Below, piece by piece: positions 4,055-9,146 of a DNA stretch of 64,000 bases. Origin of the DNA: Candidatus Bacteroides intestinavium. Its GTDB lineage: Bacteria > Bacteroidota > Bacteroidia > Bacteroidales > Bacteroidaceae. Both the position numbers and the translations under genes were made by a program. A model generated the notes under the pieces. It ran no database searches, was not told the origin of the DNA, and was given only the letters and a program-made list of their open reading frames with translations. The stretch lies in NCBI GenBank assembly GCA_019118325.1, contig DWZE01000069.1, positions 1 to 64,000 of the forward strand, given 5' to 3'. How positions within the stretch are numbered: position 1 is the stretch's first letter; each line of letters begins with the position of its first letter.

Positions 4055-5026
4055 CTAACAATAATACTTGTCCACAATTTTTTTCAGGTCTTCAATGACT
4101 TTATCGATTGACTCCTGACGTCTCTTTTTTGAATGATTCAGCATTTGCCTAATGACAGCATAGAGACTGGAATTATGCACAATAAAATCGCTCTCTTTCA
4201 CACAACCAATAGGAGCATTCCCTTGCATGATATACCAAAACACTTTTCCTAATTGGAACAGATCGGATTGATGGTCTATATTACAATCAAAGTTCTTACT
4301 ATCCACTTTTTCTGACAGATATTTATTCATAGCCTCAGGAGAAAGCCAGCCTCTTGGTCCCAATAACTCCCCCTCTCTATCTAAACTTTCTTGATTCCTC
4401 ATTTGTATAAGTCCCAAATCTCCAATCTTCCAAATTCCATTCACAACAAATATGTTATCCGGTTTTATGTCTCGGTGATAATAGCCTAAGTCGTTCAATT
4501 CCTTAAGTCCCTGTGCTATTTGCAAACAAAGTTCAACACGCGAAGCCTCATCCACTTCTTCATTTTTTTCTTCAAGGTAACTTTTCAAATCAAACTCGGC
4601 ATATTCCATTATATAGAATGGGAACGAAACATTATACGAATTACTCCCTTCTGTTTTACATTTCAGATTTCCATCAAAACTAATATCTACAACATTTCCT
4701 ACTCTACGCTTTTTACAATTATACAAAGCCTGGACCTCTTGTCTAAACCGGCGATTCTTATCTTTCTGTATAATTCGCCCACCTTTTACAATCTTCTCAG
4801 CATTCTTAGAAATCTTAATAACTTTATCCGGAATAGATTCGTCATCAAACTCTTGGGCAACGAACAAAGCAAAAACATAAGAATTACCACCCTTATTGGC
4901 CTTGATTTGCGGATTCAAATAAGACAGATAATAATCTATACCATCTACAGTCAGATAATTTTTTGTTATCTCATTCGAAATCTCAAGCCCAGCTTTATTA
5001 TATCGGAAATTGCATTCTACATCCAT
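4055..5026 (-). CDS. Eukaryotic-like serine/threonine protein kinase
   Basis: YYHRDIKPDNIFV (HRD loop), KIGDLGLIQ (DFG-equivalent DLG), GWLSPEAMN (APE-equivalent), KVIKISK; starts 7 bp after the DUF262 ORF stop. Confidence 0.85.
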   Translation of the reverse strand: MDVECNFRYNKAGLEISNEITKNYLTVDGIDYYLSYLNPQIKANKGGNSYVFALFVAQEFDDESIPDKVIKISKNAEKIVKGGRIIQKDKNRRFRQEVQALYNCKKRRVGNVVDISFDGNLKCKTEGSNSYNVSFPFYIMEYAEFDLKSYLEEKNEEVDEASRVELCLQIAQGLKELNDLGYYHRDIKPDNIFVVNGIWKIGDLGLIQMRNQESLDREGELLGPRGWLSPEAMNKYLSEKVDSKNFDCNIDHQSDLFQLGKVFWYIMQGNAPIGCVKESDFIVHNSSLYAVIRQMLNHSKKRRQESIDKVIEDLKKIVDKYYC

Positions 5027-5032
5027 AATGCG

Positions 5033-6139
5033 TTAAATGAACTGTTTTGTATCAATAATTCGCCACTTACCCAGATGAATGAAGGAAATTTCCTCTAAAT
5101 CAAACTCCGCTTCTAAGAATTCACACACTTCTGCTAGATGAGGTGCCATTACGCTCTCACCCTCATATGAAATTAATATTTCCTCCAATATATCCAACCT
5201 AACTTGCCGAGCTGTCTTTGAATTCGATTGGGTTACACAATTATAGGCATACATTTTACATGTTTCGCAATCATCATTCGTTGGCCTGATAAACCCTCTC
5301 TCATCCATAAATACCATGAGACGATATTGTGCAATCAAAACATCCTCTGGCAATTCCTTATGCTTTGAGATAAAGCAAAACCATGTATAAAAGTCATTCC
5401 GTTGCTTAAATCTCGTTTCATTGATGGGTTTAATCTTATTAAGCGTCACTAATCTATCAACGACTCTCCTAAATTCGGACTTGACATCTTGAATAGTTTC
5501 ATTATCCAAATCAGTTTCCAGCAGTTCATCCACAGCCTTCCTCTTGTCAGTAACTTTTTTCTTAAATAAATAGGCAACCAATTCTTCTATCAAACTCCGG
5601 TCATTCATACGCTGGACCGTTTTTGTAGAAAATATATCCAACTCCGTGAGTCCCTGCAAATCCATCAATTCATTGACCAAAATCATGAAGGAAGCATCAT
5701 GATATTGAGCTTTATTAACTTCAGCCGCATTCAGATGAACCCCAGGTTTATTTACAAGACTATAGAAATCTTCTAAAGATTCGCCCGCCGCTATATCAAC
5801 ATCATAAATTTCCGTAATACTCAATCTATAAGACATAAAATTTTCTTGATCAATATCATTATAATATCTCTTCTTTGAGTCAGAAAATTCATTCTTGACA
5901 TATTTACAAATAGTTGTAGCACGTTGTTGTCCATCAACCATATCATAGCCATTCTCGGCATTCTTATAGATAAAGAAATTAGGCAATGGATAACCTTTTG
6001 TAATGGAATCTATTAATAACTTTTGGTCTCTTATAGACCAAATAAAGTTTCTCTGATAAGGAGGATGAAGATTCATTCTCCCAGACTTTATCCATTGCAT
6101 TAATTGTGAAATTGAAACTTCTTTAATTGAATAATTCAT
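5033..6139 (-). CDS. DUF262 domain protein (GmrSD/SspE N-terminal-like) with no recognisable C-terminal HNH
   Basis: PYQRNFIWSIRDQKLLIDSITKGYPLPNFFIYKN...YDMVDGQQRATTICKYV (canonical DGQQR motif). Confidence 0.85.
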   Translation of the reverse strand: MNYSIKEVSISQLMQWIKSGRMNLHPPYQRNFIWSIRDQKLLIDSITKGYPLPNFFIYKNAENGYDMVDGQQRATTICKYVKNEFSDSKKRYYNDIDQENFMSYRLSITEIYDVDIAAGESLEDFYSLVNKPGVHLNAAEVNKAQYHDASFMILVNELMDLQGLTELDIFSTKTVQRMNDRSLIEELVAYLFKKKVTDKRKAVDELLETDLDNETIQDVKSEFRRVVDRLVTLNKIKPINETRFKQRNDFYTWFCFISKHKELPEDVLIAQYRLMVFMDERGFIRPTNDDCETCKMYAYNCVTQSNSKTARQVRLDILEEILISYEGESVMAPHLAEVCEFLEAEFDLEEISFIHLGKWRIIDTKQFI

Positions 6140-6160: not shown

Positions 6161-7117
6161 TTATCCGCAATAAGGTGTACTTCCGTATAACCGATGATCG
6201 AAAGAGGGTTTAGTACAAACGGCCGCAATCATCAATCTTTCGAACAATCTTTCTCCGAAATATCTTCGATTGAACTTATAACAGAATTCATCAAGATAGA
6301 GTTGTAGGAACTCCCGTTTGATTCCATGGTACATGTCTGTAAGTACGGCTTTTGCATTGGATATGGCAGTGTGCACCCAAGGAAGTACCTTGTGCCCCTC
6401 CTTGGGCTTGACGGCACGGGCTTCCGCCTTGTCCACGACCTCACTTACTTTTACATGCGCCGTGGAAGCATCCATGATGACTTCGATGGATTCCTTTTCA
6501 CAAATGTCATTCACGGCCTCTTTTACGGTGTCCGCTTTAAGGTTGTCTATGACGACCATGCGCAGATGACCGGCCTTGCGGTCTTCCTTCCCTTTCCCGG
6601 GAACGTCAACAGGCTCACTTTCCACCATCACAAGGACTTTCGTCTTGCCTTGGCTGCCGTTACCCCGTTTAAGTGGTTCATCCTCTTCACGCTCGTCCTC
6701 CGTGGTAAAGTGGGCCTCATCCAGCTCTGCCACGCCGCTGAGCTTGTAACGGGAATCCCGTTGTCCCATGACGCTGCGGATTTTGTGCACCATTTCCCAA
6801 ATGGGTTGGTAACGTTTGTGACCCAGTTGGCGTTGTATCTCAAGGACGGAAAAAGTCTTTTTCGTACTGATCAGTAAATGGATGGCGGTGAACCAGTACA
6901 TCAAAGGCAACTTGCTGCTTTGGAACAATGTGCCGGAACGCAAAGTGATGACATGCTTGCAGGAAGCACACAACCAACGCTTGTTGTATTTATCCCAATG
7001 GTGGCGCGTTCCACCGCAATGAGGGCAAACCAACCCTTCCTGTTCACGCAAGGCGCGGAGATACTCCTCGCAAGAGGCCTCATCGGGAAATATACGGTTA
7101 AAATCAAGTAGTTTCAT
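6161..7117 (-). mobile_element. IS1595-family transposase (ISXO2-like, N-terminal zinc ribbon)
   Basis: CPHCGG...CASCKH zinc ribbon, GTLFQSSKLPLMYWFTAIHLL, AELDEAHFTTEDERE (DDE-type), INAVLTDMYHGIKREFLQLYLDEFCYKFNRR-like C-terminus; terminal repeats not resolved. Confidence 0.85.
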
Positions 7118-7206: not shown

Positions 7207-8088
7207 TTAGTATTTTTGTTTGCTTGGTATCACCCCGCGCACCCCTCCCTTAGGATTGGGCACATCCCCCTTATATCGGGGAATGAGATGCATATGCACA
7301 TGAAAGACAGATTGCCCGGCAGCCTCATTCACATTGATGCCCACATTGTATCCATCCGGATGATAGCGTTCATCAATTTTCTGCTTCACATATTGGAGCA
7401 TGACATTCATGGCCTCCCGCTCATGGTTTGTCAGATCGAAATAAGAAGCCACATGACGCTTGGGGATAATCAAAGCATGGCCGGGAGATACCGGATAACC
7501 ATCATAAAAGGCCACACAAGTAGCCGTTTCGCAGATGATTTCCACCCGGCGGGACAAACGGCAGAAAGGACACGTTTCACCTTCTTTACGCGGCAATTTA
7601 TTAAAATGAATGTATTGGTAAAGTTCATAGCTGGGAGTACATTCCAAACTCAAAAAAGGCAAACGAACATTGCACTGATAAGTGTATTGCCGATGGATGG
7701 CATGAAGACGGAAGCCTTCTTCCTTCAAATCACGCCGCACTGCAAAATAAGCCGTGCCACGTGGATGAAGCAAGTTGGTGACATTCATCATTACTTCGGC
7801 TTGAGCATAAGGTTCAAGCACATTCAGCACATAATTGCAGAGGATGGTATCGAATTTCCCTTCCGGATAATCCGGACGATAATAATAGTCATAACCTACG
7901 ATATCATATCCCTGACGTTTCAACTCATCCGTATCAAATCCAAATCCGCAACCAAAATCAAGAATGCGTCCTTTCAGCAAACCATGCTGAAACAAATAAC
8001 GGGTAGGTACGGAGAGCGCCGTCCTCCTGATAGCAGTCAAGTAAGGATGGTTTATTTTTTCGGGTTCCATAAAATTCAAAATTTCCAA
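7207..8088 (-). CDS. Class I SAM methyltransferase / HIT-domain fusion protein
   Basis: N-terminal ILDFGCGFGFDTDELKRQGYDIVGYDYYYRP and TILCNYVLNVLEP; C-terminal CPFCR, GHALIIPKRHV, QSVFHVHMHLIPR (HxHxH HIT triad). Confidence 0.85.
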   Translation of the reverse strand: MEILNFMEPEKINHPYLTAIRRTALSVPTRYLFQHGLLKGRILDFGCGFGFDTDELKRQGYDIVGYDYYYRPDYPEGKFDTILCNYVLNVLEPYAQAEVMMNVTNLLHPRGTAYFAVRRDLKEEGFRLHAIHRQYTYQCNVRLPFLSLECTPSYELYQYIHFNKLPRKEGETCPFCRLSRRVEIICETATCVAFYDGYPVSPGHALIIPKRHVASYFDLTNHEREAMNVMLQYVKQKIDERYHPDGYNVGINVNEAAGQSVFHVHMHLIPRYKGDVPNPKGGVRGVIPSKQKY

Positions 8089-9146
8089 GTAGTAAATCCC
8101 ATATTCAACGCTATCTGATACATCGGCGAGAATGTCCGAAAAAAACAGTCCAACAAATGTTCCCTGTCCATAGTCACTATATCTTGAGGAGTATGCTGGA
8201 GTAGCAAATAGTCTTCCAACAATTTAGACGACTTGCATACCTGCAGATTAATCTTTAGGGAAGATTGATGCATTTCCGCCAACTTAGGAAGGTAACAATC
8301 CAAGTCCGGCAGTTTGTTCCCTTTCGAACTGTTCACACTCGAGTCTACCGGAATCAGATTCCAAAGTAGGTCGTGGGAAACAAAACTCCATGGAATGAAA
8401 TGGTCAAGGTCGTAATGGGAGACTTCCAGCAATCTCCCTGTATAAATGCACCTAACCTCCATACCATGATTGATGGCCGCATTCCAGAACCCCTTCTGCG
8501 CGGCCAATGAATGCCTTTCCTCTTTCTTTACCAATTTGCCGGGAATATTGGGTACATTCGGATTCCGCAATTGCAAGAAATTCGCCAACCCCCAATAAGC
8601 AAAGGAGGTAAGTATCTCGTAATTCTCCCGGAGATAAGGCAACCATATAGGATTCAGTTCAACCCACAACGAACCGTTCTTTTTCTCCAGTTTATACAGA
8701 CAACCATTCTCCAATGTCTGTGAACGGATCAGCATTTCCCTATCATCCGAAGTGTTTATCCAAGGACGCAAGAAGCGGAAAGGAACGTTTATCTGTAGAA
8801 AATTCAACTGCTTTCGGATATCTCTACGGCTCACCAATTGATATAACAAATCTGTCAAGTCCTTCACACCAATGTTTATCGGAATATTATTCTCTTTCTG
8901 TAAGGTCAAGATAGCCTCGTAGAGTGATTCGGACTTACCAAAAGACAGGCGGAAGTAATTCACTGGATACCATGCGTTGGCAACCATTGTTATCATAATA
9001 TCCCATACATTCAGCCTGGTTTTTCCTTGTTTCACATACAAATCTAGGATGCCTAGAAACCAATAGTATTTGTAGGTAGCCACTGTCTTATCAAATACCC
9101 TATTCAGATATTTTGTAGTCAAAGTTTGTGATTGAGGTATATTCAT
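8076..9146 (-). CDS. HNH endonuclease domain protein
   Basis: CIYTGRLLEVSHYDLDHFIPWSFVSHDLLWNLIPVDSSVNSSKGNKLP (HNH/beta-beta-alpha-metal motif); overlaps the downstream MT-HIT start by 13 nt. Confidence 0.8.
   Translation of the reverse strand: MNIPQSQTLTTKYLNRVFDKTVATYKYYWFLGILDLYVKQGKTRLNVWDIMITMVANAWYPVNYFRLSFGKSESLYEAILTLQKENNIPINIGVKDLTDLLYQLVSRRDIRKQLNFLQINVPFRFLRPWINTSDDREMLIRSQTLENGCLYKLEKKNGSLWVELNPIWLPYLRENYEILTSFAYWGLANFLQLRNPNVPNIPGKLVKKEERHSLAAQKGFWNAAINHGMEVRCIYTGRLLEVSHYDLDHFIPWSFVSHDLLWNLIPVDSSVNSSKGNKLPDLDCYLPKLAEMHQSSLKINLQVCKSSKLLEDYLLLQHTPQDIVTMDREHLLDCFFRTFSPMYQIALNMGFTTWKF

Follow-up and report, generated by a model that had tools for sequence, protein, structure and literature searches.

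An HNH nuclease paired with a methyltransferase-HIT protein in Bacteroidales: a candidate defence module with links to DNA phosphorothioation

Introduction

Two neighboring genes in a 64,000-nt stretch of DNA from Candidatus Bacteroides intestinavium, here called the window, raise the question of what an HNH nuclease, a methyltransferase (MT) and a HIT protein do together, the latter two being fused in a single protein (MT-HIT). No description of an HNH/MT-HIT pair was found in a literature search that covered few subscription papers, and the PADLOC library (2023) holds no specific model for the HNH gene or the MT-HIT gene. Also, the full texts of a survey of the phosphorothioation (PT) machinery (PMC10853773) and of a survey of the BREX machinery (PMC12839542) mention no HIT protein.

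Reading frames and spacing of the pair

Both open reading frames (ORFs) described in an earlier note on the window are present on the minus strand. The HNH nuclease gene, assigned by the ORF list, Pfam and the homologues that adjoin MT-HIT, is located at 8076-9146 (356 aa) and the MT-HIT gene at 7207-8088 (293 aa counted from the TTG at 8088). The 13-nt overlap from which translational coupling had been proposed exists only with this mechanically chosen TTG. The true start is probably the ATG at 8070, where the start is conserved across the family (MEPEKINHPYLTA); it leaves a 5-nt gap after the HNH stop codon instead of an overlap. With the conserved ATG, the commonest spacings among 81 pairs were a 4-nt overlap (32 pairs) and a 5-nt gap (15 pairs), so that translational coupling is still plausible. 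In locus L121, HNH and MT-HIT form a single ORF of 723 aa.

An IS1595-family transposase gene (6161-7117, minus strand) follows about 90 bp downstream of MT-HIT. As 12 of 68 relatives have a Myb-like C-terminal extension, truncation of MT-HIT by this element was considered; it was rejected because most relatives lack an extension and end at about this place (KQKY or the like).

Domains and conserved residues

The nuclease domain of the HNH protein is a Cas9-like His-Me finger of the HNH_4 type (PF13395, 2.8e-12) at residues 233-280 (8307-8450, minus strand), the sole Pfam domain of this protein. The preceding N-terminal helical domain (residues 1-219; 8490-9146, minus strand) had no counterpart in Pfam, the PDB or the viral models: the Pfam search found nothing over residues 1-220, and a fold search with these 220 residues of the AlphaFold model (pLDDT of the protein 84.8) against the PDB and viral models gave no match below E 0.01. 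This agrees with the earlier reading of an HNH motif behind about 220 aa of unfamiliar sequence. Compared with the PDB, an HNH profile of 49 sequences gave meaningful scores only for Cas9 HNH domains, over residues 200-299. The DH...N...K catalytic motif of HNH/His-Me finger nucleases is present in the window protein, and within 68 aligned pairs H249, N263, N272 and K275 occur in all and D248 in 67 (one D-to-E exchange).

MT-HIT comprises a TIGR04096-like methyltransferase domain, identified by profile matches, at residues 9-160 (7609-8064, minus strand) and a HIT domain, identified by Pfam and fold match, at residues 170-293 (7210-7581, minus strand). Pfam matched Methyltransf_23 over residues 25-118 and HIT (PF01230, 3.7e-26) over residues 183-273, and the SAM motif DFGCGFG occupies residues 44-50. 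The HIT domain belongs to the HIT superfamily by its Pfam match, its fold match to 3imi and its HxHxH triad, and its fold also matches 1y23 (B. subtilis HIT protein). Placements in a tree of HIT proteins were unstable, and the tree is disregarded here. As noted before, the triad is complete (HVHMH, residues 263-267; 7288-7302, minus strand) and a CPFC motif, probably of zinc ligands, is present (residues 173-176; 7561-7572, minus strand), both conserved in 68/68 pairs. Invariant in these pairs are the HIT histidines 263/265/267, Cys173/176, the GCG motif, D67 and YVLN, and the sole deviation among the catalytic residues of MT-HIT that were checked is one D-to-N exchange at MT position 120. This invariance indicates that the motifs are under selection and are not there by chance.

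The HNH protein diverges faster than its partner: mean HNH identity is 63-68% (down to 41%) where MT-HIT identity is 80-95%. Such divergence would be expected of the target-facing part of a defence module. In L071-L074, a second, divergent HNH subtype is paired with the same MT-HIT.

Relationship of the methyltransferase domain to TIGR04096

From its N-terminus, MT-HIT had been likened to the methyltransferase associated with Dnd loci. With regard to the family of the METHYLTRANSFERASE, TIGR04096 scored best among the methyltransferase models (NCBIfam, 63-65 bits with a cut-off of 150), and this profile search revealed no unrelated methyltransferase family with a better match. TIGR04096 matched 16/16 MT domains from different loci, and no other family matched more than four. 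A profile-profile comparison of MT with genuine TIGR04096 proteins, which are cyanobacterial and score 690-720 bits, gave a probability of 98.8% over 93 columns. Over the N-terminal SAM-binding region (about 77 residues) the alignment has no large gaps; MT and these proteins have in common an RxxxSxP start, the GCG, D-x-YY and Y-[VI]-[LI]-N-V motifs and a short link from the second to the fourth strand. However, only positions 5-94 of the 478 model positions align with MT, whereas the remaining 380 are absent from MT-HIT, HIT being in their place, and the gene does not lie in a PT locus here. Because of the score of 63-65 bits against a cut-off of 150 and the missing 380 positions, MT is, judged from its sequence, a domain-level relative of TIGR04096 and not a member. 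The proposed resemblance therefore stood at the level of the domain but not as family membership.

Distribution and genomic neighborhoods

Of 151 genomes in the family to which the window belongs, nine have a match to HNH, nine to MT-HIT and seven to both; a profile scan of nine further genomes from its genus detected neither gene. Full-length or near-full-length MT-HIT occurs in 12/295 genomes of the order. A scan of species genomes yielded at least 292 MT-HIT relatives, and from the matches listed 80 were kept, from Bacteroidales or other Bacteroidia, plus four from cyanobacteria. The phage and plasmid collections contained no full-length MT-HIT. HNH adjoins MT-HIT in 82 of the 85 non-cyanobacterial (Bacteroidales) loci among the matches listed, with one locus fused (L121); two of the other three lack HNH (L097, L119) and the third is cut off by the contig edge.

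At least one scored defence system lies within 8 kb in 47 of the 85 loci listed, which is a raw count without a random-locus control. Within this distance, PT genes (SspC/SspD/PbeA) were found in nine of the 85 loci, Wadjet JetC or DUF3584 with MksE likewise in nine, YhcG in eight, DUF5131 with a TcmP-like gene in five, and DpdF and Abi-like genes in four each. Hachiman HamA/HamB lies near the pair in two loci (L068, L147), a Druantia DruE-like helicase in one (L067/L129) and a TOTE primase-helicase in L076. Overall, the genes next to MT-HIT are highly varied (295 clusters among 404 genes). The neighborhood survey that the earlier note had proposed thus revealed a patchy, defence-associated distribution and not that of a housekeeping pair. 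A housekeeping HIT protein or methyltransferase is ruled out for MT-HIT by this patchiness and by the pairing with HNH.

The same data bear on a role in DNA repair or end processing outside defence, with HIT as an aprataxin-like AMP remover and HNH as a trimming nuclease. HIT enzymes can strip AMP from 5'-adenylated DNA (aprataxin, PMC4530458), and HINT1, aprataxin and 1y23 share the complete HxHxH triad and the HIT fold with MT-HIT; but these are housekeeping or repair enzymes that are not coupled to a nuclease, the distribution of the pair is patchy, mobile and of a defence-island kind, and it is absent from nine of nine other genomes sampled in the genus. We consider this role very improbable.

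A toxin-antitoxin or addiction pair, in which HNH would be a DNA-damaging toxin that MT-HIT neutralises by binding or modification, would account for the overlapping or abutting genes, the plasmid-borne relatives, the faster-evolving nuclease and the fused locus. It is improbable since each gene also occurs alone: MT-HIT lacks HNH in L097 and L119 and, at least as an adjacent gene, in cyanobacteria, and HNH lacks MT-HIT in Ssp loci.

The cyanobacterial MT-HIT genes (L162-L165) have no adjacent HNH and lie beside non-defence genes in genomes with full TIGR04096. In the Fischerella genome among them, HNH lies some 120 kb away in an Ssp operon.

Links to DNA phosphorothioation

Ssp/Pbe genes lie in or beside nine Bacteroidales pairs of the 85 loci listed. 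Six Bacteroidales loci have SspC within 8 kb, frequently arranged as SspC-SspD-HNH-MTHIT, and five have PbeA nearby. This order, or HNH-MTHIT followed by SspD/PbeA, was observed in L076, L096, L120, L137, L138, L150 and L153; in L076 the HIT domain is degenerate. Between SspD and PbeA, other Bacteroidales Ssp loci (L195-L203) differ in their cargo, with other genes in the slot of HNH-MTHIT.

Outside Bacteroidales, HNH homologues lie inside or beside Ssp loci. The Ssp locus on a plasmid of Cyanobacterium HL-69 comprises DUF4007/SspB, SspC in two parts, a full-length HNH homologue, SspD and a DndB-like gene, and a Geminocystis plasmid has the same layout. Hymenobacter yonginensis carries HNH, cysteine desulfurase, SspB, SspC and SspD in a plasmid Ssp locus. 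SspB, a partial SspC, HNH, cysteine desulfurase and TIGR04096 occur on Synechocystis pSYSM, and TIGR04096, SspC, HNH and cysteine desulfurase are all present on a 26-kb Leptolyngbya plasmid. In Synechococcus NIES-970, HNH is accompanied by cysteine desulfurase and by TIGR04096, the latter beside HNH as in pSYSM, and the gene order on the Fischerella chromosome is SspB-SspC-HNH-cysteine desulfurase. SspC is encoded on 64 of 72,556 plasmids and on 5 of 14 non-redundant HNH plasmids (hypergeometric p ~7e-13, a value that ignores phylogeny).

An HNH-superfamily nuclease adjoining PT modification genes, as in Fischerella and similarly in Synechocystis pSYSM, recalls SspABCD-SspE and IscS-DndBCDE-DndI. 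SspE and DndI are DUF262 + DUF1524 proteins (PMC11662687), whereas the HNH protein of the window has neither of these domains and consists of HNH_4 and the unmatched N-terminal domain only.

Two fusions connect the parts of the pair with the DNA sulfur-binding domain (SBD). In L065 (7798-8613), an SBD (8h0l, E 7.5e-7) is fused to a HIT domain that is 67% identical to the HIT of the window; to our knowledge, such an SBD-HIT fusion has no earlier description. In L085 (6324-8555, 743 aa), downstream of SspD and PbeA, an SBD (8h0l, E 5.9e-17) is joined to a Myb-like domain, a relative of the extension at the C-terminus of some MT-HITs, and, at residues 563-732 of L085, to the N-terminal domain of the HNH protein with the nuclease absent. 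ScoMcrA-like SBD-SRA-HNH proteins resemble the pair in their HNH nuclease and, through L065 and L085, in the kind of SBD, but the HNH protein of the window contains no SBD or SRA domain according to the Pfam and PDB searches.

A check for dnd or ssp genes had been suggested for the window's genome. Profile searches detected neither SspC nor DndC in it (82% complete), so that no SspBCD or DndBCDE system was found, either beside the pair or elsewhere in the genome; the same searches found SspC in 12 and DndC in 17 other genomes, and such a system was recognised for nine related loci. In a sample of the order with 12 pair-bearing genomes, SspC occurred in 2/12 (p 0.08) and DndC in 1/12, and the association at genome level was not significant. 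The absence from the window's genome and the rarity in pair-bearing genomes argue that PT is not required, and shared ancestry with a loose functional association fits better. Wadjet neighbors are as frequent as PT neighbors, so that co-location may reflect the clustering of defence islands. The suspected PT link was thus supported by unforeseen routes, namely the HNH homologues in Ssp loci and the SBD fusions, but not by SspC or DndC in the window's genome.

Two PAPS reductases of that genome were considered as SspD and rejected, as the SspD profile matched neither; one belongs to a cysC/cysN-type sulfate-assimilation operon and the other lies beside a ParB-like gene (IbrAB-like by inspection). 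A link to Dnd as opposed to Ssp was likewise dismissed: MT-HIT was found in 0/17 Bacteroidales Dnd loci, several of which end at contig edges, and full TIGR04096 in 0/13 Dnd genomes tested.

Modularity of the partners

The recurring unit is HNH with HIT and/or MT, and MT-HIT is one form of it. HNH is accompanied by a separate HIT protein in Polaromonas, Aromatoleum, Hymenobacter canadensis and Persicobacter, and within Bacteroidales by HIT without MT in L064 and L077. On plasmids of Francisella, Acinetobacter and Pseudoalteromonas (L249, L250, L252), it overlaps or adjoins a separate small class I methyltransferase, and in Ssp loci outside Bacteroidales it has neither HIT nor MT. The HNH proteins of the HIT-only and the Acinetobacter/Pseudoalteromonas pairs are distant relatives with a profile match mainly over the nuclease domain. 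Also, an HNH_5-type nuclease is fused to HIT in one ORF (L082:7956-8930, L083:6765-7748).

The gammaproteobacterial plasmids suggest that HNH acquired a methyltransferase partner on more than one occasion. These pairs would also suit an analogue of restriction-modification, with MT methylating host DNA, HNH cutting unmethylated DNA and HIT as an auxiliary, but the gammaproteobacterial methyltransferase is only generically similar to MT. Moreover, MT has a conserved YVLNV where DNA amino-methyltransferases carry motif IV ([DNS]PP[YFW]), comprises about 150 aa without a target-recognition domain, which sets it apart from type II systems, and is missing from the HNH + HIT pairs. Such an analogue is quite improbable.

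The pairs with HIT alone beside HNH in several lineages (L064, L077, L236, L239-L241) speak for signalling, in which a nucleotide induced by infection would activate HNH and HIT, with or without MT, would destroy or modify this nucleotide. An off-switch role of this kind was proposed for ThsC, the HIT-family protein of Thoeris type II (PMC8565338), and the PADLOC ThsC model matches the HIT part of MT-HIT with 46 bits. However, no ThsA/ThsB was seen beside the pair, and the HIT domain here shares a protein with a methyltransferase and has an HNH nuclease as its partner. Among the 404 neighbors (295 clusters), no nucleotide synthase recurs constantly, and the cyanobacterial Ssp loci contain HNH but no HIT. 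We regard signalling as unlikely.

Possible function

The recurrence in anti-virus islands and the relatives of its parts in PT systems make the pair look like an undescribed defence module. The explanation that we tentatively favor, at just short of even confidence, is a mobile two-gene nuclease module for defence with PT-linked ancestry, in which HIT and MT are interchangeable partners for nucleotide chemistry. It has its direct basis in the domains, the intact active sites, the co-inheritance, the defence and PT neighborhoods of homologues and the SBD fusions, from which we infer HNH activity on invader DNA, a HIT substrate, a methyl acceptor and a protective effect. The HNH protein would be a DNA nuclease that cuts invader DNA, and its N-terminal domain may recognise DNA or dock onto a partner complex. 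It may have been derived from Ssp-type PT loci and would still be their nuclease component in cyanobacteria, Hymenobacter and some Bacteroidales. HIT would hydrolyse a nucleoside-phosphate adduct tied to the action of the nuclease, candidate substrates being adenylylated DNA ends or backbone and nucleoside phosphorothioates released when PT-DNA is cut. A second, dispensable chemical step could come from the TIGR04096-like methyltransferase. Against this explanation stand the lack of SspC/DndC in the window's genome and their scarcity in other pair-bearing genomes, the equal frequency of Wadjet and PT neighbors, the MT-HIT count of 0/17 in Bacteroidales Dnd loci, the degenerate HIT of the Ssp-linked L076, and plasmid statistics that ignore phylogeny.

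By analogy, HIT chemistry fits PT biology: human HINT1 converts dGMPS to dGMP + H2S (PMC8775712), aprataxin removes AMP from 5'-adenylated DNA ends (PMC4530458), and an adenylated intermediate was reported for a PT pathway, as far as the citation of An et al. 2025 in PMC12345140 conveys; one or another of these chemistries may apply. As the earlier note had proposed, the pair may install, remove or sense a nucleic-acid adduct.

A stronger version, in which the HIT proteins are dedicated PT-DNA enzymes recruited by SBD or HNH, seems quite improbable to us. They would desulfurate or hydrolyse PT (or adenylylated) DNA and nucleotides, and the TIGR04096-like domain would methylate the sulfur product. 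If so, the pair would attack, read or erase PT marks even in hosts without PT, and would be a first enzymatic eraser of DNA backbone sulfur.

HNH with HIT, MT or MT-HIT is a concrete, widespread and apparently undescribed module. Through it, DNA phosphorothioation is linked with HIT hydrolases and with the methyltransferase fold of TIGR04096, which is uncharacterised. If the favored explanation is right, a set of Ssp loci would gain a candidate nuclease, and PT marks a candidate enzyme that removes or processes them.

Further observations

In Streptomyces phage phiSASD1, a PAPS-reductase/AANH-like gene is directly followed by a HIT gene (gp3-gp4; L242:5123-6450); gp3 was rejected as SspD-like because the SspD profile does not match it. 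A DUF3584/MksE-type (Wadjet-like) system adjoins MT-HIT in L097, L101, L126, L130, L146 and L060. The large subunit in L101 had no PADLOC match below 1e-8 and may belong to an unlisted Wadjet variant. In the window, beyond the IS1595 element, a DUF262/GmrSD-N protein (best PADLOC model NsnA, 90 bits) adjoins a Ser/Thr-kinase-like protein (PADLOC models mad6 and PD-T4-6, 77-82 bits) at 4055-6139 on the minus strand, forming a second candidate defence operon.
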